Shown here piece by piece: positions 7,194 through 56,900 of a stretch of 64,000 nt of DNA; position 1 is the stretch's first letter, and each line of letters opens with the position of its first letter. The position numbers and the translations under genes are program-made. Under the pieces are notes generated by a model. The model was not told where the DNA came from, did no database searches, and saw nothing but the letters and a program-made list of their open reading frames with translations. This DNA comes from Symbiodinium sp. CCMP2592. Its lineage: Eukaryota > Sar > Dinophyceae > Suessiales > Symbiodiniaceae. Location of the stretch: the NCBI GenBank assembly GCA_905221615.1, contig CAJNDT010006157.1, forward strand, positions 1 through 64,000, read 5' to 3'.

Positions 7194-7199
7194 CTTGGA

Positions 7200-9700
7200 T
7201 AAGTCCGCACGTAAGCACTCATCGCGAGATATACAAAATAAAAGCCTTTCCCGTCACGGATTCACCCCGCATCCTGAACATCATGTTCAATCCATTCACG
7301 ACACATCGGGCTCCCACGGTTCTTGTTCGTTGGAGGAATGCCCCATTAAGCTGAAGACCACATTCCATTGGCCACCTCGCCTGCAAGCCACTCTCGCAGC
7401 TTGGAGATGTGCGAAGCCAGCTCGAATCCTTCGGGACCGTGCGATGTGTAACCGAAGCAGACCCATCTGCCACTTACAACTGTATCCAGACGAACTGGTG
7501 GCCACATCTTGATGAAGCTTCGCGGAAGCCGGAAAAGCAGCAAGCCTGGCCATTCCTTTTTGCGAAGGCTGCTCGCTTCAAGCTCCAGGGGTCTAGCAGG
7601 GCCATTGATGGCACAGGTAAGGAGGTCAGAAGTTCACCGATCTCCTCCAGATATCGCTGTTATTGATTATTAACATCGTCCAATGCACCAGTACTAGATT
7701 GACCCTACAATGCAAACAGATTCTTGCAGCATCATGAATATTAAACCGATCCTGCTGTCGTTATCAACTGCGGCACAGCGGCAACACAACTGAAAAAAAA
7801 CTTCACCGGATGGGCAGCGAAGTTGTCGCCCAGAGCCCTCTCAGGCTGGCATGCTCCAGTGCAGTATCTTACCATGTCTCCGTCCTAGCATACAGTCAGT
7901 GGCTTCGTTACAAATTAACCCTGGGGTAGAGATGATAATCAAGCCGCCCAAAACACATCCAGCCACCTGATGTCTGATCTTTGCTGTGCGAGAGTCGAAG
8001 TCTCCTGCAGATAGAGTCTAGGCCGACGCTCCGAACGGCATAAGCACCCGTGCAAAGCGTCCTCCATGTCGTGTAGGAGCAACGGGCACTGACTACAGAC
8101 GCTACAGACTCCTGGCAAGCCTTGAGCCAACACCACGGCAGGAAGCAGAAAAGCAAGTGCCAGGACGAAATCGGTCAGCTGGTATACATCTTGGTCTTGG
8201 TCTTTGGTGTGCCATCTTCAGGTCAAGGAGCCCATACCGGCTCGAAGATGACACTCGTAGAACGTTTTGGAGCTCCTTGTGCCCGCTCCACTTTTGCTTA
8301 CAAGGACTTCCCGCTTGTTGCCCATGCACCGACGGTCCTTGATGCCACGTCATCCTTCCTGCACTGTTCGAGCTTGGCTGTTACCCGACCGCAGAACAAG
8401 AGGTAAGCAGACCCGTTTACACTGACCTTGTCTGTGATGCTATGTTGCTGCTTCTGGGCCTATTGTAGCCACTATCTACGAACCTAGTTCCGCTACCGCA
8501 TGGTTCAGGAAACGCTGAACATGCCAAACCCTCAGACAGACGCACCGACACAAAGCTGAAATAGTAGACATAGTATGCCCGTTCTACGTGCTGCCGAAGC
8601 GTCAACGGAGCCAAATATCCTTGGCTCCAAGCATCCCCAAAGTACACCCGGATGATGGAAGCGATCATTGTCCTGACTTCATGTTCCAGGTCTAGCCGTC
8701 CCGGTCTCTCGCATCATGCCACTGCTGCAATCTTGAGAGTTCTTCATGCTGCCCTGAAAAAATTTGCATAGACTTCCAAACTCTTACAGGGCTTAAGCTG
8801 AACAGCCTCCTGGAATGGATCTCTTGCTCACAGCGCGCTTACGGTTTACAAAAGGACACTGCGCTTGCTTGTTCGCAGCGACTGAGGCTGTGACTGAATT
8901 GACACAACGGCCACGAAAGAATTACTTGCCATCCTCCGCACAGCACGGCATCCCACTTTCGCACGCAAACTCCCAAAAGCAGGGTCAGTGCACTTTGGCC
9001 GGGCAACACCAGGCCACGCCCAGCTCGACCATCGGGATTCAGGCCCAGCAACTCCAGCCAAGAGCCTCAGCCCGGTCACAAGAGCGGCCTTCGAGAGCAA
9101 CATCGACGGACTGAAACTTGTCTTCAGAGCGGCGAAACTTGATAATGAAGGCTGCTGCCAGAAGAAAGACTGGATAGTAAATGATTAATGCTGGAATGGC
9201 ATGCGTGAGCGTGACCACCATCATGACCTGAGCGGAGGAACAGCACGGAAGCACACCTCATCGGTGCTGCAGCAGGCACCCCACTTTTTGAGGATCTCCA
9301 AAACATGAGTCGCGGGCGAACACTGAAGATCCGAACCTCACTGATGTGGAATGACACTCGAGGGCCAGGCATGATACCCGTCATGCTCCAGCAGGCATTG
9401 CCCCGATGAAACTTCCCTCGACAGTGCTACAAGTGTGAGCGAGGAAACGACAAACCTTGACTCGGCAGTGGAGGAGTGACAAGGCTTTAAAGCGCTGCTG
9501 CTCGCTCTTCATCAAGGCCATTTCAAGCAATCGGGGTAAGTGCATGTCACGAAACTGCATGATGATGATGAGGAGAACGGCTCGATGCCAGTCACGCCAT
9601 CCCTGGCCGTCGTACTCCTTAAAGCGTGCAGGCGGCCGACAGCAATAGCAGCATCAGTGGCAGCAGCAGGAGACGCAGCAATCCGCAGAGAGAATCTTGG
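7200..9700. other. Region without a supported gene
   Basis: Upstream exons of the PPR-RluA gene should lie in this direction on the minus strand, but I could not identify PPR-like sequence here. A minus-strand frame near 9040-9254 encodes one hydrophobic segment followed by a basic stretch. It could be an exon of a small membrane protein, but has no recognised family. Confidence 0.4.
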
Positions 9701-9979: not shown

Positions 9980-10019
<40 letters not shown>

Positions 10020-10117
10020 TTTTTTTGCCTCCTTAGTAGTAGTAGTAGTAGTAGTAGTCGTAGTAGTAGTCGTAGTAGTAGTCGTAGTAGTAGTCGTAGT
10101 AGTAGTAGTAGTAGTAG
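9718..10117. repeat. (AGT)n tracts in a duplicated block
   Basis: Three AGT runs (about 9720-9906, 9980-10019 and 10036-10117). The first and third are each followed by the same sequence, TTTTGGCTCCCACTTGTCAG at 9911 and 10121, and then by related sequence ending GCAGGTA. This is a tandem duplication with a period of about 210 bp that contains the triplet tract. The poly-Ser frame 9540-10220 is a product of the repeat. Confidence 0.85.
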
Positions 10118-10411
10118 ATTTTTTGGCTCCCACTTGTCAGCGTCTCACGACTCTGCTCGGCAGGTAACACGTCAACTACGACCCCTCCATTCCCAGACGA
10201 CCCATAACGTCCCACAGTAGCCCAGCAATACCCTAGACCCCCAAGGCAATGGGTCGTCGAGGAACAAAGGATTACGGGGCGGGGCACTCTTCAGGTCGGC
10301 CATCGCCCTCCAAATGGCAAGGCAGTACATATATCAGGTTAACGGCGTACAGTTCACAGGCTACTGCCCCCTCGCTGTCCAAAACAACAAAAACTACCGA
10401 ACCACTAACGT

Positions 10412-10900
<489 letters not shown>

Positions 10901-28617: not shown

Positions 28618-29996
28618 CTAGTAAAACAGCAGTTCCGTTCTATACTGGAAAGGTTTCAGCTGTATCAGCTGTGCTTTGTGGATGTGGTGTGTGAAGCATC
28701 TCTGTGCAGTAAATGCTTCCAATCTGCTGTATTCTCTTTTTGTGAGCGCTGCGGAGTCCTGCCCGTATGTCACGAGCGCAATGAAAACCGCGTTGTATAT
28801 GCGGAGCTTCCACTTCAGTGTGAGGTCGGTGTTTCGCCAGAACTGGTGCAGCGCGTAAAAGTGTTTGCGCGCTTTCGCGACTCTGGTGACTATGTCTTTG
28901 TGGGTGGAGCCGTCGCTGCTGCTGCTGCTGCTGAGGGTATCTCTCATGTATTTGGCGCGTTGCTCGATTGTGAGGGGGGGTGCCGTTGGTGAAGTGAACA
29001 GTGTTCTGTGAGGCGGGTGATCTCAACAGAACACACTTTTTGAAGTTGACGTGTAAGTTGCTGTGAGCCGCCACACGCTGCGGGATGTGTAACAATTGTT
29101 CTGCGCGTTGTGCTGTTCCTGCTATGAGTGCTGTGTCGTCCGCGTGTGTGAGGTCGTAGAAAGGTTGGTTTTGGCTGTACAGCCATGGGAGGAACTCCCC
29201 GTTGGCTGTACGCTCCTCGTCCACGTCATGCATCACCATACAATGGACTATGAGGAAAAGGTATGGTGACAGAGGACAGCCTTGCCGTGTACCTGCTCGG
29301 GCTTCCTCGCCTGTGCTGTGCTTGCCTGCTGCTGCCACCGTGAATTGTGGTGAGGTGTTGATGTTTTTGATGAGTCAGTGAGGTGTGAAGGGACTCCGTA
29401 GGGCTCCAGAGCTGTGAGAAGAGCATCTGGGTGTCTGGGTGTATCTTGTCGAATGCTTTCCCCCAGTCGAGCGAGATAGTGTAAAGTGACTGCCGTGTGG
29501 CTTCAGCTCGTTCAATGAGGCGGCGTACGATTTGGATTGGCTGGGAGGTTGAGCGTGCTGCTCTGAACCCGTATTGGGTTTCCCGGAGCCTGTCGTCCAG
29601 GGCTGCTCTGAGTCTGGTGTGGATGATCTTGGCGAAAAGTTTGTATGATGTGCTCAGAAGTGAAGTTGGTCGGTAACTGGCTGGGTCTGTGAATGGTCCT
29701 TTGCCCTTGTAAATTTCGACAAGTATTGCTTGGTGCCAGTCATCAGGGATTGTGGCTGCGAGCAGCGCTTGGTTGAGGACCCGAAGGAAGGCTTCTTGGT
29801 TGTGTTCGACCAACCATTCCCAGGCTTCAGCAGGGAGGCCGTCAGGGCGTGGTGCTTTGTCGTGCGCTAGCTCTTTCAGGGATGCTTTGAACTCTGCTGT
29901 GGTGATTGGTGTGATGTCCACGGCTGCTGCTGGGTGGATTCGGTCTGTGGGGCGTGTGTATTGTGTTGGTGGTGCTGCCCAGTGTGAATCTCGCAT
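28618..29996 (-). pseudogene. LINE reverse transcriptase remnant
   Basis: In the first frame (29996-29350) LKELAHDKAPRPDGLPAEAW is the RT entry motif (KAPGPDG). YRPTSLLSTSYKLFAKIIHT is the conserved fingers motif, YGFRAARST follows, and ISLDWGKAFDKIHPD is motif A. In a second frame (29338-28640) GTRQGCPLSPYLF is motif B and THADDTALI is motif C, with His for the usual Tyr before ADD. The tail frame (28947-28618) carries the thumb and connection (WKLRIYNAVFIALVTYGQDS). At least two frame changes, near 29345 and 28950, make it non-functional. Confidence 0.9.
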
Positions 29997-30229
29997 GTCG
30001 TCTGCAAAAGTCTGGGCCTGCTGTCAGAGGCTGGTGGGCTTGCATTGTGAGTCCTGTATGGACACCGGCCTAGGCTTGTAGCCTGAGCGAACTCTCTCAA
30101 TCCACTTCCATTTTTGACGCGAATCAATATTGGCCTCGCTTTCGGCCAGCCGCTCGTGCCTCGAGGTCGTATCTCTGTGAGAGGCGGGCTGTGGAGCGTG
30201 CTGTATGAGCTGCCAAGTAGCTTGTGTGA

Positions 30230-31045
30230 TCTAGGGGTGTTTGGGAAATGAGGTAGTGGTGAGGATGTGCTGTTTGATGGCCTCTGTGGCCGCTTCCTCG
30301 AGGTTCTGCCATTGCTCGTGTGGCTGCGGCTGCAAAGGAAGTCGAGGAGACTGTGAGTAGTCTGTGGTGTGTGTGGTGTTGTCCATGTGTTGCTTGATAT
30401 GCTTGTTGTATTCTTGCTTTTGTGTCTCCGCGGGTGTTCTAATGTGTCTTTGTTTGGATGGTGCTTGTTTGGTCTCCTTGGTTCTGAGCTGTAGCTCAAC
30501 CTTGACCATGTAGTGGTTGCTGTTGAGAGCTGCTCCAATGCTGGTGTGGATGTTGTGGGTGACGTTTCGCCAATCTTTGTGAATGATGATGTGGTAGAGC
30601 TGCACCAAGTCCCCGTTGGGTCTTTTGTGGGTATATCTGTTCTGTGGTGTTTTTTCCATCCAGCTCTCTGGAAGACAGTAGTCCTGTGAGGCAAGAAGGT
30701 CGTGAAATTGGCGTTGGTCGGCTCGTCATCCTCAGCGGTTTTGCCGGTTATACAGTGTGGTCCTGCGGCGTATGATATGGCTGCTATCTCGTCGAGTGCC
30801 AGCGCGTTGAAGTCGCCGACCACCAGTAGGTCTGTGATGGTCGGTGTGAGGTGTGGTGCTGTGATGGGGCAAACGCCGGTGAAGGTCTGCGTGGGTTTGC
30901 CTTTGCTGTCGTACTCTTCGGTGGCGCTGTGGGTGATGGTGTAGCCGTCGATCATAAATTGATCTGACTATTTCATGTGGGTCTCTGTGAGCGCCAACCA
31001 GCTAAGGCGGTGTTGGCGCATGAGGCGGATGAGAGTGTGCAGTTT
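30230..31045 (-). pseudogene. LINE endonuclease (EEP family) remnant
   Basis: LLVVGDFNAL, near residue 45 of the frame ending at 30955, is the GDFN active-site motif of exonuclease-endonuclease-phosphatase domains. A shifted frame (about 30560-30640) carries RPNGDLVQLYHIIIHKDWRN and then SNHYMV. These correspond to the late D-H-x-x and SDH catalytic motifs, with the acidic residues altered (Tyr for Asp before His, and Asn for Asp in SDH). Coding is split over at least three frames (frames ending at 30955, 30659 and 30729). The domain nicks target DNA to prime reverse transcription. Confidence 0.8.
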
Positions 31046-45530: not shown

Positions 45531-46029
45531 AAAGGCAAGAGACATCCAGAGGTTGAGCCATCGATCTGAACCGCCGCTGAGCAGGTGTAGGTTATCTGCA
45601 TAAATAAGCATGAAAACAAAAGTCTGAAGCATTACTCTAAGAGACAAGCGAAGCAGGCGAACTAATAGGCCGCCGAAGCAATTCCGAAAGTTTCTGTGCG
45701 GTTAAGCCATGCAACTGATGAATCGCTCCGCGTTCCACGCGAGCACCTTTTGCTTGTACTTGCAGTTGAGTTTGTGGTTTCTGTCATTGTAGTGTACTCT
45801 CAGTAATTTTATTCGCAAAACCCCCCACAGGGCGATTCTGTGTGGCTTCTTCTCTCTTTATTTGGTGATTGTTGGTGTTCGAACCCCGTTCGAACTTTCA
45901 GAGGAAGTCTAGAACCCGAAGTTGGGCGGTTCGTCTGTTCGCGCCTTTAGCATTCTCGTAGGAGACTTCATGTCCTTCTAAAAGCTAGAGTAGTTCACGC
46001 CTAGGTTCGCGGACTACTGTCCCACCATA

Positions 46030-46260
46030 TTCCCCGATAACCATTCTTACCAACATATCCTATACCCACACCACCCAAAAGACCTTAACAATCATCATAA
46101 CCATTCTTACCCACAATCCTATAACCACACCACCAAAAAGACCTTAACAATCCTCATAACCTATCATAACCAAATACCCTAAACCATTCTTACCAATACT
46201 CCTATCAACCCAAACCCCCCAATACCAAAACCCCTAACCCCCTAATCTTACCAAATCACC
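46030..46260. repeat. About 60-bp tandem repeat upstream of the ubiquitin-like genes
   Basis: Two good copies of a unit that starts AACCATTCTTACC and ends AAAGACCTTAACAATC(A/C)TCAT, at about 46040-46100 and 46100-46160. A decayed third copy begins near 46184. It lies in a G-poor stretch that ends about 200 bp before the first gene. Confidence 0.75.
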
Positions 46261-46464
46261 TATCCAGCGAACGGGGCATCTTCCTTCTTCAATTTTGACG
46301 ACGAGCGCTACAACATCCAGATCGTGCTCCTTGCGAGTTTATCCATAAGCAGGACTACCGATTGCCAGTGAGTGCGAAAGGGTTTGCAAGTGAAAGCCAC
46401 GAGCAACACATTTTTGTAATCCGAAGCCTGTGAAATATCAAGCCTTTCGCCATAGATTGAAGCA

Positions 46465-47097
46465 ATGTCCGACGCAGAGCCCGATTACAAGGCACTTTAC
46501 TTTGCGGAGCTTCGTAGAACACAAGCCTTGTCGTTTGTCATTCGTGATGGGTGGCAACACAGCATCGTCCTTCCTCCCAATGCAGAAGCACAGGCGCTTG
46601 AACAGTTCATTGTGGATGGTGAAGTGAAGCTGTATGAAGCAAAGAAGCAACTTGCCTTTCACAATGCTCGTGATTTCACTGTGATGGCTACATACAAGAA
46701 CCAGTTTGCCACCATCAATGCCGAGCCGTTCTGGACGGTCAAAGCCATCAAGATTGCAATCAGCTCTGCCTTCCGTTGCCCTCAACCAGATGCTCCACTG
46801 CATATCGGGCGTGTCTTCTACTTCTTTGAGGGCATCGGTGAGCTGACAAATAACTCCAAAAGGCTTTCTACTGTCATTCCGAGAAGGGGATGCGTCGTCC
46901 ACGTGCTGGATGAGGATGAGAGAGTCGTAGAAGGTGCTCCTACACAGATAGATGACCTTTCCTATCCTGATGCCTGTTGTTTGCGAAGCAAGCTTGTGCA
47001 GAAGCGCGTTGAAAGTTATATGCGGAATAGTGCGCCTGTTGCCCCGAAGTCCAAAGCCAAAGCGAAGGCTGTGATTGCTCCTGCCGAAGGCAACTAG
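46465..47097 (+). CDS. Ubiquitin-like (beta-grasp) protein 1, 210 aa
   Basis: An intact frame from ATG at 46465 to TAG. Residues 1-65 form a mixed helical lead (AELRRTQALSFVI). Residues 70-155 alternate short hydrophobic strands with a helix (FTVMATYKNQFATI, WTVKAIKIAISSAF, then CVVHVLDED), as in a beta-grasp domain. The tail is Lys/Ala-rich (KSKAKAKA), which could be a nuclear or nucleic-acid-binding tail. It is the first of three plus-strand genes with similar architecture, a unidirectional tandem array as is usual in dinoflagellates. There is no C-terminal Gly-Gly, so a conjugated modifier is unlikely. The ubiquitin-like fold is my inference from strand pattern and from the clearer third gene. 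Confidence 0.7.
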   Translation: MSDAEPDYKALYFAELRRTQALSFVIRDGWQHSIVLPPNAEAQALEQFIVDGEVKLYEAKKQLAFHNARDFTVMATYKNQFATINAEPFWTVKAIKIAISSAFRCPQPDAPLHIGRVFYFFEGIGELTNNSKRLSTVIPRRGCVVHVLDEDERVVEGAPTQIDDLSYPDACCLRSKLVQKRVESYMRNSAPVAPKSKAKAKAVIAPAEGN

Positions 47098-47255
47098 AAG
47101 GCTTGAAGCGGAAAATTACGTTGCAGACTGGTTGCAAGTGTTGCTGAGCGCGAAGTGCTGTGAATTTCATTGAAGCACGTGAGCAAATATATGCCTTTGT
47201 AGCAACTATTGCTTCAAGACTTTTGAAAGCGTTCTTCATAGTCTCCTGTGTCGCT

Positions 47256-47765
47256 ATGGCTCGTGAAGGGTATGGGTCTTCTGCTGACAGGTTGCAGGAT
47301 GCCAAGCACTCGTCAATCAGTGATGTAGAAGCAAAGGCGGTTCAAAAGATTGGTCGCTGGTGGAAACGAGCTGTCAATGAGATGGAGATTGAGATTACGG
47401 TGCATTTCAAAGATATGCGAGTGTCAGGTGAGAACCCACCTCCAATCTACTGCAATATGTTCGTGCTCAATTTCAGGGCGGATATGTCTGTGTCCAGCTT
47501 GGGCGTAGCCATCTTAGAGAAGTATGATGAGCTCATCCCCACGGACGGCGATTACCTGCACTTGGCAAACCGAAGGTTCAAGCAGATGCTCTTCAAGGGC
47601 TTGGTTATTCCATCCCTTGGCGATTATGGCACACCATTGACCGACTCAATTCGCAGTTTGAGGTCGCTTGGCTTCACGAAGGAGAACGACGTGACGATGC
47701 ACCTCTACAAGGAGCATTCCCCTGAGTTCGCCAGTTTCTTTCAGAAGCATCCGTCCCAGTCGTAA
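47256..47765 (+). CDS. Ubiquitin-like (beta-grasp) protein 2, about 169 aa
   Basis: The frame is open from 47160 (a GTG), but the first ATG, at 47256 (MAREGYGSSADRL), is the more likely start. EIEITVHFKDMRV, FVLNFRADMSVSSLGVAILE and LANRRFKQMLFKGLVI follow the strand-strand-helix-strand order of a ubiquitin-like domain. LRSLGFTKENDVTMHLYKE is the last strand. The protein ends SFFQKHPSQS. The final 45 or so bases, including the stop, are duplicated just downstream. It lies about 160 bp after gene 1 and 240 bp before gene 3, all on the plus strand. No function is known to me. Confidence 0.7.
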   Translation: MAREGYGSSADRLQDAKHSSISDVEAKAVQKIGRWWKRAVNEMEIEITVHFKDMRVSGENPPPIYCNMFVLNFRADMSVSSLGVAILEKYDELIPTDGDYLHLANRRFKQMLFKGLVIPSLGDYGTPLTDSIRSLRSLGFTKENDVTMHLYKEHSPEFASFFQKHPSQS

Positions 47766-47828
47766 GCACAGGCTTTCGTAGCTTCTTCCAGAAGCACCTG
47801 CCCAGTCGTAAGCACTGGCTTTTGTGGT
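47736..47828 (+). repeat. Duplicated gene end (47-bp unit, two copies)
   Basis: CAGAAGCATCCGTCCCAGTC GTAA of gene 2 is followed by a second copy, CAGAAGCACCTGCCCAGTCGTAA, 47 bp on. Both copies continue as GCACAGGCTTT and GCACTGGCTTT. The duplication contains the stop codon, so it adds a second stop and 3' UTR instead of changing the protein. Confidence 0.8.
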
Positions 47829-48008
47829 GCAGAGGGCTCACCGAAGCGCCTTTGCAGTAAAACAGCAATTGCGTTGTAGACTGCAAGTGAGTGCGTGAGA
47901 ATTCCACAGTTTCCTATGTGCCTTGTTGAGCATTTGATTTGACTTGAAGCTTTTTCCAAGCCAAGACCAATTCGTAAGCCTTCTCCTCTTGCTGTTGCCC
48001 TAAACGCA

Positions 48009-49100
48009 ATGACGAGCACGAGGGACACCGAAAAGAAGCTCAAAGATGTCTTCGGGCATATGCTTCCACCCAAGATGTCATCAGACTCAGATGACCCCCA
48101 GCGCGCAGTGCTGATGAACGAAGTTATGAAGCAGAAGCAGACGATTGAAAAGCTCGTTGCCCGTCTCGCCTTGCACGGCGAAACCGTCAGCGATGACGGT
48201 GCCTCTAACCCGACGGTTTCTGGAAGTGCTGGCTACGGTGGTGGTGCACCGCCACCAGACGACAACGACAACGATGACAGTGATGACGACGACAAGTCAG
48301 ACAAGAAGCGAGGAAATGGACGAGGCGACCGAGGTGGTGACGGTCGCAGACGCCCCTTTGAATCCAGCACCTACGACCTTGAAATTGCGGTTGTCACCGA
48401 AGCTCACGCGCAAAGCTTCAAGGTCAGAGTGAGCGAATGGACTTTCCTTTCCTCGTTGAAGAATGTGATTTATGGTGCGCGTCCAGCCTTTCACCCTTCT
48501 TGCCAAGAGCTTCTTCTCAATGGCAACCAACTTGCTGATGAGGAAATGTTGCTTAAAGACCTAGGCAACCCGCGCACTATCCAGCTTGAAGTGGAGTCGG
48601 ATGGGGACAGCTCCTACAACATTGACATCCGCGTCCTGAACCTTGCGGATATGCAGTATCACAATTTCAAGGTCAATCACTACAACACCATCAGGAGCGT
48701 GAAAGAGATGATGCAAGGACGTATTCAAATCATCAGCGTAGAGATGGCGTTGCTCTTCAACGGCGACCACACGCGCAACGAGCGGGAGCTGTTTGACGAG
48801 CTTGAAATTCCTACGGATGGCACGGGCGTCCTTCACCTCGCCTTCCTGATGTTTGGCAGTGGGAAACGTGGCAGAACAAGCATTCAGGTGACCCCCGAAG
48901 AGAACGACAGTCCACTCGTCACCTCTATCATCCAAACCTTCCAGCAAAAATGGGAGATGAAGGACTTTGAAGCTATGGCAATCTCGGACATCGTGAGCTT
49001 GCAGGACTTGGAGAATATGAAGAATGCGGTGCAAGGCGGAGGGCACGATTACAAGGCGCAGAAAGTGTTTCGCTGTCTGCCCCACATCAAGGAGTTGGAG
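48009..49100 (+). CDS. Ubiquitin-like protein 3, double beta-grasp, exon 1
   Basis: Starts at ATG 48009. Residues 35-60 are a short coiled coil (MNEVMKQKQTIEKLVARLAL). Residues 75-118 are a Gly/Asp-rich linker (DDNDNDDSDDDDKSDKK, then GRGDRGG). Two ubiquitin-like modules follow. Residues 121-197 contain YDLEIAVVTEAHAQSFKVRV, FLSSLKNVIYG and QELLLNGNQLADEEMLLKDL. Residues 203-278 contain NIDIRVLNLADMQYHNFKV, IRSVKEMMQG and ALLFNGDHTRNERELFDEL. The L-N-G-x-x-L-x-D-E-x-x-L pattern is the classic ubiquitin-like loop. A helical tail ends HIKELE. The frame stays open to a TAA at 49122, but the tail continues in another frame after the 21-bp repeat (49307-49486), so the last codons before that TAA are probably intron. 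Confidence 0.75.
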
Positions 49101-49306
49101 GACGACCCCTTTTTCAGTTTGTAAAACACCCCTTTCGGTTTGTAAAACCCCTTTTTCGGTTTGTAAAACCCCTTTTTCGGTTTGTAAAACCCCTTTTTCG
49201 GTTTGTAAAACCCCTTTTTCGGTTTGTAAAACACCCCTTTCGGTTTGTAAAACCCCTTTTTCGGTTTGTAAAACCCCTTTTTCGGTTCGTAAAACCCCTT
49301 TTTCAG
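49101..49306 (+). repeat. 21-bp minisatellite, probable intron of ubiquitin-like gene 3
   Basis: Unit AAAACCCCTTTTTCGGTTTG T, 21 bp, with nine TAA stops spaced exactly 21 bp apart (49122 to 49290) in the upstream frame. The first and last units read CCCCTTTTTCAG instead of ...TTCGG, and this is a good polypyrimidine-AG acceptor. A protein-like frame opens directly after the last CAG. The donor is unresolved. A boundary at GAG/GAC (49100/49101) keeps phase and would be a GA-AG intron, a class reported for dinoflagellates. Confidence 0.6.
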
Positions 49307-49486
49307 GACCTGAGCGAGAGGCTGTCTCTCGTGCTTCGCTTCACAGAGCAGAACTTCAAGGCATCTTTCACAGAAGTGTTCGCTGACAAGAAAGCTTTTG
49401 AGACTTTCCTTTCGCAGATGGAGGGCGCAAAGCGTGCGATGGCTACTATGGTAGTGCAGAGCCAACCTGTTCCACCGACCGGCTAA
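49307..49486 (+). CDS. Ubiquitin-like protein 3, probable exon 2
   Basis: Immediately after CTTTTTCAG a frame reads DLSERLSLVLRFTEQNFKAS, then FTEVFADKKAFETFLSQMEG, and ends at TAA 49484-49486 after a Gln/Pro/Val tail. It has an amphipathic helical pattern like the end of exon 1 (LENMKNAVQGG), and exon 1 ends in an unfinished helix (HIKELE). The frame differs by two bases from exon 1, which rules out simple in-phase repeat expansion and supports splicing. Confidence 0.55.
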   Translation, partial: DLSERLSLVLRFTEQNFKASFTEVFADKKAFETFLSQMEGAKRAMATMVVQSQPVPPTG

Positions 49487-49499
49487 GCTGTCTCTTTCT

Positions 49500-49900
49500 T
49501 TCACGTGCTTGCACAGGGCGTTGATTGAATGCCACTCAACAGACTTGATGCACAGACCTTCCCGCAGTGAGTGAAATGTCGTTGAGTGTGCGCACCAGCA
49601 GATTTGAGACCAGTTTCGGCAGTTTGTGCAGTGCGGACGTCCCCTAAATCCCTAAACCCTAAACCCTTTGAGAACGGCTACTGTGTGCGCGACAGGTGGA
49701 GCTCTACAACAACGACGCTTATGCCGAGAACTACCAGACTTCGGTGCGCCCTTTCCGGTGTCTAGTGGTTCAGGGTTTTCGGGGTTGGGCTGGGGTTAGT
49801 TTCGGGTTGCTCGGGTTTCGTTGTGGTTGTGTCGTGTTTCCCTAATGGCTCAAACCGCGCGTGAGAAAAACCCTAGAACCCCCCTAGGGTTTTTCGGTTC
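49500..49900. other. Left flank of the AT-rich island with telomere-like motif
   Basis: No gene seen. It contains CCCTAAATCCCTAAACCCTA from 49640 and, just before the composition change, a perfect 11-bp inverted repeat, AAAAACCCTAG (49866-49876) and CTAGGGTTTTT (49884-49894), with a 7-base loop. Confidence 0.7.
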
Positions 49901-50173
49901 CCTATTCCCCCGAAGCCATTTTATCTCAAAACCGGCTCAAAAAACATAAAATCAAAAATACAGCATCCGGTGTAGTAAAAAACGGTGTTTTAAGCACCAA
50001 ATCCGATACAAACCTGCAAAAAAATCCAACCTACGCCAAAACATATAGCAAAACATATACCAAAAAAAGCAAAACAACAAAACACATCAATATTTTGATA
50101 CAACATTTTTTTTCAACTCCTCACCTCCTCTCGTCCAAAATAATTGTTATAATAATTATTAAAACAATTATTT

Positions 50174-50425
50174 TCATTCCTCAACCTTACCCGCTGTTAT
50201 AACCGCCATATTCTCCATACTATATTTTTGATTAGGAAGCATTTTAACCTTTCCCCCTTTGGCTTCCTTAATCCGTTGCTTGCTTAACCTTTTCCTTTCC
50301 CTTATTGCCGTGGCATAATCGGGGTCTTGCATTCTCAGCTTATAATACAACCTCTGATACAGCGCCATTTGTTCCCTAACTTCGTCCAGTGTTAAATCCT
50401 CGGGCTTCTTCATTGCAGTCATTTT
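50174..50425 (-). CDS. Small basic helical protein of the AT-rich element
   Basis: A minus-strand frame divergent from the polymerase ORFs. The frame opens at 50491 with a hydrophobic lead, but an internal ATG at about 50422 (MTAMKKPEDLTLDEVREQMA) gives a compact protein of about 82 residues and is the likelier start. The helix LTLDEVREQMALYQRLYYKL is followed by a basic stretch (RERKRLSKQRIKEAKGGKVK), as in small DNA-binding or structural proteins. I do not recognise a family. Divergent placement across a 130-bp AT-rich gap suggests a shared control region. Confidence 0.5.
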   Translation of the reverse strand, partial: KMTAMKKPEDLTLDEVREQMALYQRLYYKLRMQDPDYATAIRERKRLSKQRIKEAKGGKVKMLPNQKYSMENMAVITAGKVEE

Positions 50426-50556
50426 ATGCTTACTATATATAAGCGTTTTGTCTTTGAGGCATTTAACAAAGACCAATATAACCAAAATCAAAACAGGAGA
50501 CTAAGGAGAAACCATTTAAAGAAAAAATAACAATATATTTTAATCTAGATTATCAT

Positions 50557-51069
50557 ATGACTAGAAAGGCTATCCGTGACAATATTAAACACCTAAATAA
50601 CAAGAGACAACGATTAATAGAAACAAAAGCACCTAAAAACGTTATTACCAAAGTTAATCAAATTGTTGATTTATATGAGAACCGCCAACTTTCAATTTTC
50701 AAAACTGCCGAAAAACTCATCAACGATATGACAACGGGAACACAAAAAGAAAAAACAAGAGGCATTAAAAAAGCTGAAAAAGCCATAGAAAAGTTTGATG
50801 CCAAAGCCCCGTTATCGGAACGAATGAACAAAACAGCCGAAAAAGCCAGAGAAGGAAAGCAGATAAAGGTTTTACGGCGCATTTTCGGAAAACAACCTTT
50901 AAGGAATGTTGTATCCAAAACAAAGGAGCTTTTCAAAATCGCAAAACGTATTCCATTAAATATATGCTTCTTTCAACGCAGAACCGCTCGGGAAAGAAAC
51001 GAGCCTTTGAAGTCAATGGCAGAAATTATTATCCATTACTTAATCCAGCACAGAGAGAAGCGCAAGTAA
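50557..51069 (+). CDS. Coiled-coil N-terminal ORF of the polymerase gene
   Basis: 170 codons from ATG 50557. Residues 1-110 are highly charged helices (DNIKHLNNKRQRLIETKAPK, LSIFKTAEKLINDMTTGTQK, IKKAEKAIEKFDAKAPLSER). From memory, coiled-coil segments of this kind precede the polymerase domain in one protein in related elements of fungi and protists. From about residue 128 the sequence loses that character. In the other frame NRKTYSIKYMLLSTQNRSGK reads straight into the 991-codon ORF, 106 bases before this one ends. The two ORFs probably descend from one gene split by a frameshift near 50930-50955. A genuine overlapping second start at ATG 50964 cannot be excluded. Confidence 0.65.
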   Translation: MTRKAIRDNIKHLNNKRQRLIETKAPKNVITKVNQIVDLYENRQLSIFKTAEKLINDMTTGTQKEKTRGIKKAEKAIEKFDAKAPLSERMNKTAEKAREGKQIKVLRRIFGKQPLRNVVSKTKELFKIAKRIPLNICFFQRRTARERNEPLKSMAEIIIHYLIQHREKRK

Positions 51070-53939
51070 AAGCAAACGATTTTATAGAGACCGTCATAAA
51101 ACGGAGAATTACAAAACAATTTGACAAATTCCTTTTTAAGCGCCTTATGTTGATATTAAGAACTGATTCAGAATTTAACGAGATGGCTCGGGGAGAGATG
51201 TATCAATACATTGACGCTATAAGAATTGAAAGTGCCAACATCGCAGAAGGTGAAGCTCAACCGCCAGAAAATCAAAACTTACGAGATGCTACAAACATAT
51301 CCATATATAACAAATATATAGAAACTGAGATTGACCCCAGCTACTCAACAATAAAAGAAGCACTCGCAAAAAAGCACTATACCGAAAACGAATGTTGGAT
51401 AAATTCACTTCTAGACCACTACCCCGACCTTATGAGACACAAGCGGGGCTCGCTATCCAAAACCCTAACCCGACAACATATGCTAGAACTTCTACACACA
51501 ACAGAAGAAGAGTTTAAAAAAAAAGGCGCAACCACGACGCAAATGGAAAACGTCTTCAAGGCATTTAACATAACAGCACGTCTTTTTGACTTCAACGGGA
51601 AGCTTATTTATTCATTTGACCCGCCCAATTACCATATGCACACGAAAGGCTTCTTCGGGCTCATCAAGAACAACCACGTCTACACCATAAACAGAGACCT
51701 GAAAAGCATCAAAAGAACAATGAACGCGAACATCAACGCCAACCAAGAAGACTTCAAGCTTAAAATCAGTAGCAACTATTATATAAGCGACCGAGAAGAG
51801 CCCCCTGAATGCCATATGATAGATACAGCTAACGACCTTTTAAAATACACAGAAAAACCAGAATATACACTGGTTCATAAAGATAATGACCTCGTAAAAC
51901 TCTTCCACGAACTAAAACTAGCAGGTTACGAGCCCTTCATAAAATATCAAGCGGGAACGATGACAGAATTGAAAGTAAATTGGAAGATAAAAAGCACGAA
52001 GCAAGAAATCACCTACACAATCAAGCTACAAAACTTATCAACCCACAGCATAGACGAAGACGTATCGGTAGAAAACGAAAAGCTGTTCAACGATATGAAC
52101 CGAGAAATGTTTAACTTCAACAAGAAAATCTTCAACGATGCCCACAAGTCCTATTACAGTCAGACCGACATAGATATTTTAGACGAAGCCCGAACCATAG
52201 TGCCAACAGGATATTTCAAAAACAACTCTACAAACGAGACCGTAGAAATTGACAGAACAAAAGCTTTCACGAAAGCCTTCTCCAAAATTACACATATACC
52301 AGTCTTTACCGAGTTTGATATATGGAAGCCTTACCAAAATGAAGAATTACAAGGTTTAAACCTATACCTAGTGGAAGCATCAACAGGTAATCTTCTCTTC
52401 AACAAAAAATTCAATCTGGTATATGGAATGTTTCTTAAACGCCTTGAAGAAAAAACCTTCAAAATACACTACCACAAGCAACCGTCGCACATTCACGAAG
52501 TGGATTATGAAAATATCGTATCCGAGCTCTGGAATACCAAAATAAGCGACAAGCCCAAACAGGACGCCAAAATCAAAAAAACAATAGCCAATGTAAATTT
52601 CGGATTATTGGAAAAATCCACCAACAAAAAGCAAAAGTCAATATCCTTCAACAGTCTAGAAGAGGCGCTATATTACAGAAACATTTATGAGGGTAGGGTG
52701 TTTGTCATTGAAGAAGGCGAATTGACAGACGACGGGGACGGAACTCTTTTCACAAAATATACTGATAAATATTATATACTGAACATCACAAAATCCAGAA
52801 CATTAACTAACGGCTTCCGCTATATCAAAGAGCTTCTTCTTCAAAATCATAATTATGATATGTATGACACCTACAACACCTTAACCAAAAACAACATAGA
52901 AATTTTCAGTGTAAAGTCAGACGCCTTCGTCATCAACAAAAATCAGCTGACAAAAGCCAAGAAGCTGATAACCTTCAATAACCAAGTCGGAGGGTGGAGA
53001 GCGGAAACCGACAAGGAAATCAATTTCCCGACTGAGCCCTACAAATACAGATTAAACATAAAACACGACATACCAATCTACACCAACAACCGCCTAAACA
53101 TATCCGACGAATGGAACACCGAAGCCATCTGTCACCAAATCGTAGAAAACAACCCTTGTATGATACGCGCTAAATACGCCGGCTCCGGAAAATCCTATAT
53201 CTGCGAACACTTCCAGAAGCTAAATTACAACGTCCTTTTCGTTGTTCCTAACAACCGCCAGATACAGGAAATCAAATGCGAAGCCGTTACCCTAAACAGA
53301 TTTTTCAGTATTCCGGTGCATAAGGGCGACGAACTTCCCTATTACGACCATTCCGAATATAATGTTATTGTTTTTGACGAGGTTTATATGGCGAATGCCT
53401 ACATCTTAAACAGGATAAGGGAATTCACCATCCGATACAAGAAAGAAAAAATTATTATCGGAACAGGTGATACAAAACAGCTCCCTCCGATAAATGACTT
53501 ATCCAACACACAGCCATATGATACTTATGCCGACAACTGCATAAATATTATTTTTAATAATGACATCTTTCTAGAAATATGTAAAAGGGTAGGAGAGAAG
53601 GACAGAGAAACAATGAACCGTCTTTACAACGACTTCTGGCTAAATAAACTGCCTATTGAAACCATAGCGCACAAATACTTCCAATTCACCAACAGCACCC
53701 TAACCAGCCCTAATAACATAGCTTACACGAATGCCCGATGCGATGCAGTAGCCAAGGATGTTAGGCAGAAGCTAGGCAAGACGTCCAAATACGAAGTAGG
53801 CGAGATAATGATATGCCGTAAGTATGTACAAAAGGAAGGAATGAAATTTAATGTGAATATCAGATACAAAATCCTTCACCATATAGACAAATACGTAATC
53901 CAAGACATCAAGGAAAAAACGAAACACCTACCTCCATAA
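50964..53939 (+). CDS. DNA polymerase-like / SF1 helicase fusion, 991 aa
   Basis: The longest ORF in the window. Residues 141-153, ENECWINSLLDHY, and then HMHTKGFFGLIKNNHVYTIN belong to an N-terminal module of unclear role. Residues 480-492, NKKFNLVYGMFLK, resemble family B polymerase motif B (K-x-x-x-N-x-x-YG). Residues 648-657, FSVKSDAFVI, sit where motif C (YGDTDS) is expected, with one Asp kept. SF1 helicase motifs follow: Walker A AGSGKSY (GSGKS 740-744), Walker B FDEVYM (Asp805-Glu806) and motif III GDTKQLPP (835-842). It then carries TNARCDAVAKDV and YKILHHIDKYVIQ and stops. SF1 enzymes of the Pif1/RecD kind need a late HSxQG block and a terminal TR-arginine block, and both are absent. 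The protein was therefore truncated by loss of the right end. The likely role was element DNA replication. Confidence 0.8.
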   Translation: MLLSTQNRSGKKRAFEVNGRNYYPLLNPAQREAQVKANDFIETVIKRRITKQFDKFLFKRLMLILRTDSEFNEMARGEMYQYIDAIRIESANIAEGEAQPPENQNLRDATNISIYNKYIETEIDPSYSTIKEALAKKHYTENECWINSLLDHYPDLMRHKRGSLSKTLTRQHMLELLHTTEEEFKKKGATTTQMENVFKAFNITARLFDFNGKLIYSFDPPNYHMHTKGFFGLIKNNHVYTINRDLKSIKRTMNANINANQEDFKLKISSNYYISDREEPPECHMIDTANDLLKYTEKPEYTLVHKDNDLVKLFHELKLAGYEPFIKYQAGTMTELKVNWKIKSTKQEITYTIKLQNLSTHSIDEDVSVENEKLFNDMNREMFNFNKKIFNDAHKSYYSQTDIDILDEARTIVPTGYFKNNSTNETVEIDRTKAFTKAFSKITHIPVFTEFDIWKPYQNEELQGLNLYLVEASTGNLLFNKKFNLVYGMFLKRLEEKTFKIHYHKQPSHIHEVDYENIVSELWNTKISDKPKQDAKIKKTIANVNFGLLEKSTNKKQKSISFNSLEEALYYRNIYEGRVFVIEEGELTDDGDGTLFTKYTDKYYILNITKSRTLTNGFRYIKELLLQNHNYDMYDTYNTLTKNNIEIFSVKSDAFVINKNQLTKAKKLITFNNQVGGWRAETDKEINFPTEPYKYRLNIKHDIPIYTNNRLNISDEWNTEAICHQIVENNPCMIRAKYAGSGKSYICEHFQKLNYNVLFVVPNNRQIQEIKCEAVTLNRFFSIPVHKGDELPYYDHSEYNVIVFDEVYMANAYILNRIREFTIRYKKEKIIIGTGDTKQLPPINDLSNTQPYDTYADNCINIIFNNDIFLEICKRVGEKDRETMNRLYNDFWLNKLPIETIAHKYFQFTNSTLTSPNNIAYTNARCDAVAKDVRQKLGKTSKYEVGEIMICRKYVQKEGMKFNVNIRYKILHHIDKYVIQDIKEKTKHLPP

Positions 53940-53945
53940 AGTCTG

Positions 53946-56900
53946 GCCGACGAGTTTGCAAAACCAAAAGGGAAACGTTGAAGCCACGTCGGTCAACTTC
54001 CCAGAGCTTGAACTACGACTCCCATCCAAGAAAGAACACCAAAAATCCGCGCGGGTCAACTGGCGAGCCCGCTGCCAGGACGAAGCCACGTTATGGGGCT
54101 GTCGGGCGACCCCATTTCCAGGCCCGCAAAACACAAGCAATTCTGGCTTCGCCAGGTCGGCTCCACAGAAGGTATTGCAAATCCGCTTCTTGGTCAGATT
54201 ACGTTTCGTTGCGAAGAAGCCCCTTGGCTCTTCAAGGAAGGTCTTGGAGCTCCTAGGCCAGTGCCTCTGCTGAACTGCTTCCTCGGTGGAGCGCTTCATC
54301 TGCTGGAGAGGGATTTTTCCGAGGTGTTTTTTCATGTCCTGGCTCTTTCAGTCTGCTTCGCTGGTGGAATAAACAACAAGTCGGCGGATGCCATTTCTGC
54401 CAGACTTCTCACAACAAAAGTCTCTGTGATGTCTGTGCTGATGGAATGCTCACCGCTGCGACTTGGCCGGAGTCAGATGTCTCTTCAACTGGAAGCCGCG
54501 TGATGCGAATTAGGAAGCGGATAGGATCACGAAGAATGATTTCTCAGATCGGACAGCATGCATGAACTGTGCGATGTGTGGTGTAATTCTTCTTCGTCCA
54601 TGGCCAGACAAGGCCAGAGGCTGTCCACAGCAATCCATCAGGAGCATGCGATCCAAAAATGTCGTTGGGCGTTCTTGCTGTCCATCCCCACATCCTGAAC
54701 CCCAAACTCTTGAATCTCTGAACTTTTAGCCCTTTGGGCTTTTGGAATGTTCAACTACGCCTCCAGAGAACAATCGAGAGATCTGCTGTGCTGAATCCAG
54801 GCTGCGTGAATCTTCTAAAACATACCGGAAACAGAAAACAAGTTCCGTTTGAGATAGGCGCCCAGCACAACAGCTCTCTTTTTCATCAGGATCTGTGGGC
54901 TGTGCGGCTTGCCGGAGGGGCACAGGGAGAAGTACAGCTTCTGGTGCGTCAACATGCGAGCACCCAGAAGACAGTTTTGGGTGCGATTCGATCGCAAACT
55001 CCTTGTAAACGAGCATGGGGACGATCCTCAGCCAAGTAGTGGGGAAGCTTTTGGGCAGGGGCCCGATCTGCGACGAGCACGCAGGGCGTCGTGGACCCGC
55101 GAATCGACAGTGCTCCGAAGTACGGAATTTTTACCCTTTGTTTCGAACTTTGGGCCTGCAGCTAGCACAGAGTGGAGTGCTGGAACACTCTCCCCAGAGA
55201 GAGTTGCTGCTTATGTGTGTTTCAATAAGCCTCGAATCCATCCTCTAGACACACGTTCACACGAAAAAATTTTCATCCTTTGGCAGTAAAAAAGACACAC
55301 AGAGACACAGATACACACCCAGGTACCGCCTTGCAGGCGTGTTGATGTCAGAGAGGTTCCTTCGAGAAAGTTGAAGTCATTGAAATGAAGGCTCAGAGTC
55401 AGAGTTTTTTGGTGAGTCCAAGCCGAAAATCTGAATCCATGAAGGCCACGCACGTGCCTCCCTGCATGTCGTCCTCCGCGCTCTGGCCTAAACGCAAGAC
55501 TTCGTGATTTGGCTGGCATGTCAATGCTATCGTTCCTTGCATTACTTTCTGAAAGGTACGTTCTTGTTTGGTTGTTACCGGTTTTTTTTTTCACTCCATC
55601 TCAACCCCGAATGGACCTGTGCATCCATGAACCCTTCGCTCCATCTCTCAACCCAAAGTTTGCAGCAGATGTATTCCTCCTTCTCACCGTCTTTGGGCCT
55701 CCGATGCTCCGGACACTGCTTGGAGTGCCGTTTCTGCTTACGGGGATGCTGGCGAGTGGCAGAGGCAAGAAGGTTTTGACTTTCGTGGGATTCTACTTCT
55801 AGTCTCAAGGTATTTGAACAAATCAGAAAAGTAACTGCAGGTGGAATGTTTTCCGGGGGGTTTCAGGGTGTTTGGCAGTCCGGGCTGATTCAGAGGATGG
55901 AGATTCAGCATGCGAGAGATTTACAGCATGATCCTCGACAACGTTGTTCGGCTCGGCAGCTCATTCATGTCAGAGAAGGCAGAGACACATGTAAACGTCA
56001 CAGCATGTTGCTGAAACTCGATGTCAATCAGGACGCGGTTGGCTTTGGTGGCGCAGCCTCGAAGCACTTCCCGAACCCTTGTTCTTCTACATGTTCTACG
56101 GTGCACATTCGGCTTTATTCCGTGACCACCGAATATCCCATTCCTTCACTCACGGGCCTGAAGTCTTCTAAACACCTCGCTCTTGAGCATAACCACTCAT
56201 GCATTGCAGGGCTTTGGTGCTCTTCAAGACTGCGCGGCACGTGGACGCGGGGGATGCTGGTTTCTTTGCGTTTGCAATAGGTGCCTGTCAGGCACGGGGG
56301 GGCTTCGGGATGTCGTGGGCCAAAAGTTGACAGCCTCAGTTAGTACGAATTCGAAGGATATCTATTCGCGCCATTGCTGCTCTCAGAGCCAGGCTAGGCC
56401 AGGCCTTGAAACTGTTTGGCTCCCCAGCTGGTCAGATCGGAGCTCAGTGGCAGCTTGCGCTGCACTTCTTGGGAGAGATGCGGCTGGCAGGCCATGCAGA
56501 TGGCTTTTACTAAAAGTAGATCAAAAAAGGCTCAGGTTGGTTCTGCATTGACACGTGTCCACAATCGCAGCCGCAGTGGCCAATCAGGTTTGCTACTAGG
56601 AACAAGTTTCTGGATCTGGTATGTAACAGTGCTGTAGGATAATATGCTCATGGCTGTCATACTTGTGGCATCAGTCATGGTACCTATACAAGCAAGACCC
56701 TCCGTCGTGACTGTAGTGACGATATTAAGCTTCTCAACCAGAACAGCGCAAGGTCAGATTCGACAGCCTCTGGCAAGGTGTTTCAAACCAACCGGACCTG
56801 AGAAAGCGGACCAAAGACGTCCAAGTGCTTCGGCTTGTCAGGATGTGGAGGTTTCTTCAAGTTACGGAGTCAGACAAGAGCCTTTGCCATAAGGATCCTC

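Follow-up and report, generated by a model that had tools for sequence, protein, structure and literature searches.

The DNA analysed here is a 64,000-nucleotide stretch (the window) from the dinoflagellate Symbiodinium sp. CCMP2592, part of a 375,852-base contig in an assembly of 1,098,105,373 bases. An AT-rich segment of the window carries a long gene for a protein with polymerase-like and helicase motifs, to which we refer as the replicase, and a small gene divergent from it. A preliminary description, made from the letters alone, took this segment for a self-contained, self-replicating element of about 4 kb, transferred or mobile and possibly viral, with its left border at 49.9 kb. The drop in composition that it reported is borne out: the best-fitting low-GC segment spans 49,916–53,940, with a GC content of 0.376 compared with 0.511 in the remainder of 46–58 kb (log-likelihood gain 98), and across 1,040 4-kb windows clear of the AT-rich element the GC minimum is 0.469. 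The coordinates of all features discussed are collected in Table 1.

The replicase gene and its divergent neighbour

The longest open stretch comprises 1,046 codons, compared with a maximum of 178 in 300 shuffles, and the 991-codon frame singled out in the preliminary description is thus real, its length being beyond chance. That frame had also been taken for a whole protein, which it is not; it is only the larger piece of a broken gene, incomplete at both ends. A search of 5.8 billion proteins returned 211 relatives of the replicase at E values up to 1e-3, and 82 of the 120 listed relatives (to which all motif counts below refer) have at least 1,300 residues, as against 991 in the window. When six of the relatives were used in tblastn, the first ~130 residues were found to be encoded in another frame, which spans 50,557 to roughly 50.93 kb; the remainder of the protein matches as far as about 53,920. 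Because the relatives are mostly longer, and because tblastn places the N-terminal part in another frame, the 991-codon frame and a 170-codon frame upstream of it are to be read as one gene, which carries a frameshift near 50.9 kb and has lost its 3' end. The window protein stops short of the last ~170 residues, so that helicase motifs V and VI and an HNH-like end are missing.

What remains of the protein can be divided into three parts. For the most C-terminal, described earlier as a superfamily 1 (SF1) helicase, homology provides support. Among 25 full-length relatives, 21 match NCBIfam RecD-type models (best 5.4e-12), 19 match UvrD_C_2 and 1 matches HNH (E 0.0059), while the only Pfam match above the cut-off in the window protein itself is to the core of viral SF1 helicases (PF01443, 2.3e-4). 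In the listed relatives, Walker A is present in 114 of 120, the DEx motif in 116, motif III in 114, motif V in 103 and motif VI in 101; the HNH-like end is present in 83, and 29 of the 37 relatives that lack it are shorter than 1,300 residues. The Cys and His motifs of the putative vOTU region occur in 118 and 117 of the 120, respectively, and palm motifs A, B and C in 119, 116 and 118. A palm pattern was drawn up from residues that the family has in common with phage protein-primed polymerases (motifs A, B and C, followed by a GxW, together with their spacings); this pattern, composed after both groups had been viewed, fits the window protein, 107 of the 120 relatives and 4 of 11 phage pPolBs, but no sequence among 6,000 shuffled and 120 reversed ones. 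With respect to the polymerase motifs first proposed, FSVKSDAFVI fits as motif C, whereas NKKFNLVYG is, by its spacing, less likely to be motif B than KTIANVNFG.

By its motifs, the protein fits the pPolB-S1H plan that has been published for polinton-like viruses (PLVs) and transpovirons (PMC11071308). In the available part of that report, these proteins (also Tlr1-like helicases) combine a vOTU domain, a palm whose motif C has lost its first Asp, an SF1 helicase and, optionally, a C-terminal HNH domain. Searches of other collections returned little. Sequence searches of the PDB with the window protein and a family profile gave only six weak matches, all to the family profile (RecD, TraI, DNA helicase I and a restriction enzyme), and the best match to PHROGs profiles (0.0025) was found in one member of the replicase family, to a profile of unknown function. 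In phages, tblastn gave 124 records with matches to the helicase part only (identity at most 60%, best E 3e-4), blastn in plasmids gave no match, and a scan of a collection of genome contigs for replicase relatives gave none. Five scans of viral contigs in IMG/VR, one of them made for the capsid-like gene described below, returned a single partial relative, L001, in which a decayed vOTU-like part (10001–10585), surrounded by stop codons, lies at the extreme end of a phage-like contig.

Within its own genome the replicase is present at no fewer than 46 loci, with 50 matching pieces, the window included (46 of 443 candidates scored). The small gene, with 136 matches in the genome in addition to its homologs elsewhere, is conserved, as had been proposed. 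Moreover, it lies upstream of the replicase on the opposite strand in 36 of the 46 loci, with 469–588 bp between the edges of the matches (72 of the 136 match rows were used). An AT-rich palindrome adjoins its 3' end.

Complete sister copies and their viral genes

Five of the other replicase loci are 95–98% identical to that of the window and have open frames of 1,238–1,353 codons; the remaining 40 are 46–55% identical, and 45 of the 50 match rows contain no internal stop. We fetched the five near copies with their flanks and compared them with the window. Three are complete, with inverted repeats of 337, 368 and 732 bp (95–98% identical) at their ends, and measure 21,818, 18,359 and 21,163 bp between the common terminal AGCTAG and CTAGCT. 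All three are flanked by perfect 5-bp target-site duplications (AATTA, GTATG and CTTAG). Near copies continue for 10–14 kb beyond the replicase region, through genes for an integrase, an ATPase and capsid-like proteins, to a second terminal inverted repeat (TIR). Positions 45,982–53,930 of the window align at 96.3% identity to the left part of one of the near copies, C768, and we take 45,983–53,930, on the strength of this alignment, to be the left 8 kb of a provirus of about 18–22 kb.

The gene content of the C768 copy is that of a virus in several respects. After the replicase comes a putative integrase of 304 residues with DDE residues D71, D133 and E165, followed by a series of genes on the minus strand that lack clear matches. 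The copy also encodes an A32-type packaging ATPase (Pox_A32, 7.7e-12), a GIY-YIG endonuclease (1.2e-7; GIY-YIG is present in some sister copies), a fibre protein with an S74 chaperone domain (1.1e-3) and a lipase-like protein (8.8e-4). A gene of 506 codons is, from its position and size, putatively capsid-like, and one of 281 codons is putatively minor-capsid-like. The capsid-like gene has 561 relatives, with no name on any of the 120 listed. Its matches in the genome number at least 85 (85 of 515 candidates scored), and it lies 5.6–8.6 kb from the replicase in at least 24 of the 46 loci; the packaging ATPase has at least 145 matches (145 of 660 candidates scored). In five more distant copies, an integrase match was found in every one (one of them partial), and several other core genes were found in L026, L027 and L030, although the stretches comprised only 10 kb each, so that genes missing from them carry little weight.

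Complete sister copies with TIRs, 5-bp duplications and a linked replicase, DDE integrase, A32-like ATPase and fibre-like genes make it very probable that the window stretch is the left arm of a truncated endogenous PLV in the dinoflagellate nuclear genome. As a mobile element of possibly viral origin, then, the locus had been recognized correctly, and the bounded sister copies with their duplications bear this out; as a self-replicating one it had not, since the window copy is frame-broken and truncated. A capsid-less element of about 4 kb, resembling a transpoviron or a plasmid and made up of the polymerase-helicase and one small gene, would account for an AT-rich stretch that holds only these two genes and for their linkage at so many loci. 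However, the near-identical copies extend far past that stretch to their second TIR, the stretch begins inside the element, and for the three bounded copies the TIRs and duplications refute an element of this kind, to which we accordingly assign almost no weight. (Transpovirons as such, which have no structural module and are linear plasmids of giant viruses of about 7 kb, were rejected on the ground that the complete copies are chromosomal insertions of 18–22 kb with packaging ATPase and capsid-like genes.)

The genes of the family appear to have been kept in working order. In ten of ten pairs among five copies, the ratio of non-synonymous to synonymous divergence (dN/dS) of the replicase is 0.08–0.14, with 0.11–0.13 in the four pairs that include the window copy, and that of the integrase is 0.09–0.26 in six pairs. 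These low ratios indicate that purifying selection acted on the replicase as the copies diverged and that the lineages still depended on these genes when they separated; the window copy was probably damaged late. Purifying selection between copies and a long intronless frame might also be expected of a cellular polymerase-helicase gene of the host, but the gene is present in many copies, in TIR-bounded elements with target-site duplications, and among the copies read there was no element-free conserved locus. We therefore consider a host gene to be extremely improbable.

Several results weigh against an endogenous PLV. Pfam rve matches the C768 integrase only at E=0.18. The capsid-like and minor-capsid-like genes have no match in Pfam or the PDB, and the IMG/VR scan made for the capsid-like gene returned no relative. 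Alignment of the replicase family with 11 phage pPolBs by hhalign gave no match in the palm or any other part. Nor does any PolB or OTU profile match the replicase; the polymerase and vOTU parts are identified by motifs, and the OTU label of the Cys/His region is one that we assume, having taken it over from the plan in PMC11071308. Two of the five near copies, C1979 and C3802, are not bounded by TIRs within the stretches fetched. Finally, the window copy may end on the right at an assembly join.

Two further observations concern individual copies. The C3802 copy is interrupted by 8.9 kb of inserted DNA that bears identical 173-bp direct repeats and large minus-strand open reading frames (ORFs; L025/L043, about 157459–166347 of the contig) and is probably a nested long terminal repeat retrotransposon. 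On another contig, two replicase loci of equal score, each with the small gene, lie 19.5 kb apart (G000:C5211:192656–195676 and 212201–215221); they are either neighbouring proviruses or an assembly duplication.

Ends and cargo of the window copy

The left end of the provirus lies 4 kb outside the AT-rich stretch first flagged, where a TIR with the terminal motif begins inside a dispersed host repeat. In four of four other places read, the repeat continues where the window turns viral (three at 45,982 and one at 45,979), and these empty sites make a chimera unlikely at this border. The element thus starts at 45,983, and a border at 49.9 kb was rejected. Instead, the step in composition there is an internal border between variable, GC-rich cargo and the viral core, given that the cargo is shared with C768 yet variable among copies, and that similarity continues past the AT-rich stretch. 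The GC content of 46,297–49,915, which contains three ORFs, one with a ubiquitin-like domain, is 0.505; its counterpart in C768 is 97.4% identical and has a GC content of 0.496, as against 0.34 in the C768 core. A sharp composition step can therefore mark a border within an element instead of the end of one.

Among the other four near copies, only C1557 matches the window cargo, and does so at the 21-bp tandem array. The place of the cargo is taken by GC-rich ubiquitin-like genes in the window and C768 and by short zinc-finger-like genes in C1557 and C232. Between the window and C768 the synonymous divergence of the cargo is 0.03–0.04 (from few changes), compared with 0.087 for the replicase, which suggests that cargo may have been exchanged between elements. 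The 371-residue ubiquitin-like protein has two matches in its own genome, those in the window and in C768 (24 of 24 candidates scored). Capture of this gene from the host was considered and set aside, there being no other relative in the genome, although exons of a distant host gene could escape. It is conceivable that these PLVs form a lineage that still moves and produces virions, in which the region from the left TIR to the small gene serves as a cassette slot for changing cargo and the ubiquitin-like genes possibly act on the host ubiquitin system. The want of any other relative of the ubiquitin-like protein in the genome lowers the odds of this proposal, which we regard as quite improbable.

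At the right, similarity to each of the five near copies stops at the same window position, beyond which lies repeat DNA; its first 229 bp (53,940–54,168) recur elsewhere in arrays spaced about 2.8–3.9 kb apart (G000:C437, C19, C324, C409 and C466). No TIR pair was present among the direct and inverted repeats within 48.9–54.8 kb, as follows from the absence of the right end. Ten virus proteins of the missing part have no match elsewhere in the window, and the window contig has no capsid-like or ATPase match among the matches listed. A deletion, a rearrangement and an assembly join may all look alike at such an edge. Hence the concern, raised in the preliminary description, that the contig might be chimeric is answered at the true left border and lacks such support at the right. 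That the assembler joined viral DNA to the flanks would fit a right break with neither TIR nor duplication and a flank that starts with repeat DNA, but on the left a genuine viral terminus interrupts a host repeat of which other copies are empty sites, and the sister copies sit within contigs of 0.27–2.1 Mb. A chimera is, on this balance, possible but unlikely.

Elsewhere in the window, Rfam and tRNA scans found nothing. A 768-residue open frame at 4950–7253 (minus strand) encodes PPR repeats and a pseudouridine synthase domain, a fusion that is typical of dinoflagellates. This gene, a GC content near 0.53 and the 1.1-Gb genome all accord with a dinoflagellate host. Broken reverse transcriptase frames at 28643–30967 (minus strand; RVT_1, 2.7e-13 and 1e-8) are probably a decayed non-LTR element.

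Table 1 Features of the window copy and its flanks, from left to right
Feature	Position	Strand	Remarks
Dispersed host repeat holding the insertion	45747..45982		236 bases; at least 40 other places listed
Left TIR, starting AGCTAG	45983..46296	+	Identity of 85–87% to either TIR of C768 and of C1557
Cargo ORF, 210 residues	46465..47097	+	Same ORF in C768; no Pfam match
Cargo ORF, 169 residues (201 from an upstream GTG)	47256..47765	+	Same ORF in C768; no Pfam match
Cargo ORF, 371 residues, ubiquitin-like domain	48009..49124	+	Pfam ubiquitin, E=1e-6
Tandem array, 21-bp unit, 9.5 copies	49105..49304		Overlaps end of cargo ORF; similar array left of the core in C1557
AT-rich palindrome, perfect to near-perfect	50137..50174		At 3' end of small gene; 19-nt arms, 95% complementary
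Small conserved gene, 82 residues (ATG start)	50177..50422	-	Divergent from replicase; 52 homologs
Replicase, N-terminal part	50557..50930	+	In another frame than the 991-codon ORF; tblastn with six relatives
pPolB-S1H-like replicase gene, main surviving part	50964..53930	+	Sister copies are homologous as far as 53,930; the ORF itself reaches 53,939
Putative vOTU protease region	51393..51692	+	Cys at ECWIN (residue 144), His at NHVYTIN (residue 238)
Palm-like motifs	52251..52997	+	A, DRTKAF (52,251); B, KTIANVNFG (52,578–52,604); C, VKSDA (52,911–52,925); GGW (52,989–52,997)
SF1 helicase, RecD/Dda type	53106..53930	+	Walker A (53,181), DEx (53,373), motif III (53,469); motifs V and VI missing
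Right break	53930..53931		Point of divergence from all five near copies
Flanking repeat DNA	53940..54549		Pieces 53,940–54,168 and 54,176–54,549

Relation to known polinton-like viruses

Following the published plan, the replicase of an intact copy would start replication of linear DNA from a protein primer, its vOTU part would cut the priming domain free, and its helicase would unwind ahead of the palm domain; the integrase, cutting with a stagger of 5 bp, would then insert the linear product, and virions could be made by means of the capsid-like genes. The window copy is a remnant and is itself incapable of these steps.

The reports with which we compare the family were available in part, and the statements that follow refer to those parts. 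The pPolB-S1H proteins of PLVs and transpovirons (PMC11071308) show the order of parts that the motifs suggest here, namely an N-terminal region, a Cys/His vOTU-like part, palm motifs in which C lacks its first Asp, an SF1 helicase and, in some, a C-terminal HNH domain; the window copy differs in being broken, and the likeness is one of plan, as opposed to direct sequence comparison. Endogenous PLVs of protists, including a Dino group, resemble the Symbiodinium copies in being insertions of 15–30 kb with TIRs and a GC content unlike that of the host, in dinoflagellate hosts (PMC10120064), and are described as having a capsid gene with a polymerase or helicase and an rve or tyrosine integrase. 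The 5-bp duplications and the ubiquitin-like cargo do not appear in the available part of that description. The rve-type PLVs of cryptophytes (PMC12220804), for which Symbiodinium is among the hosts named, likewise have a helicase–HNH fusion, an adjoining rve integrase, TIRs of hundreds of bp and short duplications. However, the HNH domain is there called N-terminal to the helicase, as against C-terminal here, and the duplications are typically 6 bp, compared with 5 bp in three of three copies here. OmPLV of Oxyrrhis marina (PMC12721341) is also an endogenous PLV of a dinoflagellate, AT-richer than its host, with TIRs and a large helicase–polymerase fusion, and often fragmented. In OmPLV, however, the helicase precedes a full pPolB with exonuclease, accompanied by a tyrosine recombinase, whereas here palm-like motifs precede the helicase and the integrase is of the DDE type; an SF1-pPolB of the OmPLV type is ruled out by this order.

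The element had been thought not clearly described, which is only partly right, since the protein plan (PMC11071308) and PLVs of dinoflagellates (PMC10120064 and PMC12721341) are on record in the parts of those reports available. Its kind, an endogenous PLV with a pPolB-S1H replicase, is already known, and this family is a further case. Protist genomes, those of dinoflagellates included, can hold thousands of viral capsid genes, and the same survey, as far as available, reported no replication enzyme for many such elements and noted helicases fused to an unknown domain (PMC10120064). What the Symbiodinium family offers is the full set in one genome, with complete copies that have their ends, target-site duplications and an open replicase kept under selection, and that show how the truncated window copy was built and integrated. 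It thereby makes testable both the protein-primed start of DNA synthesis by a pPolB-S1H-HNH protein and the continued movement of the proviruses.

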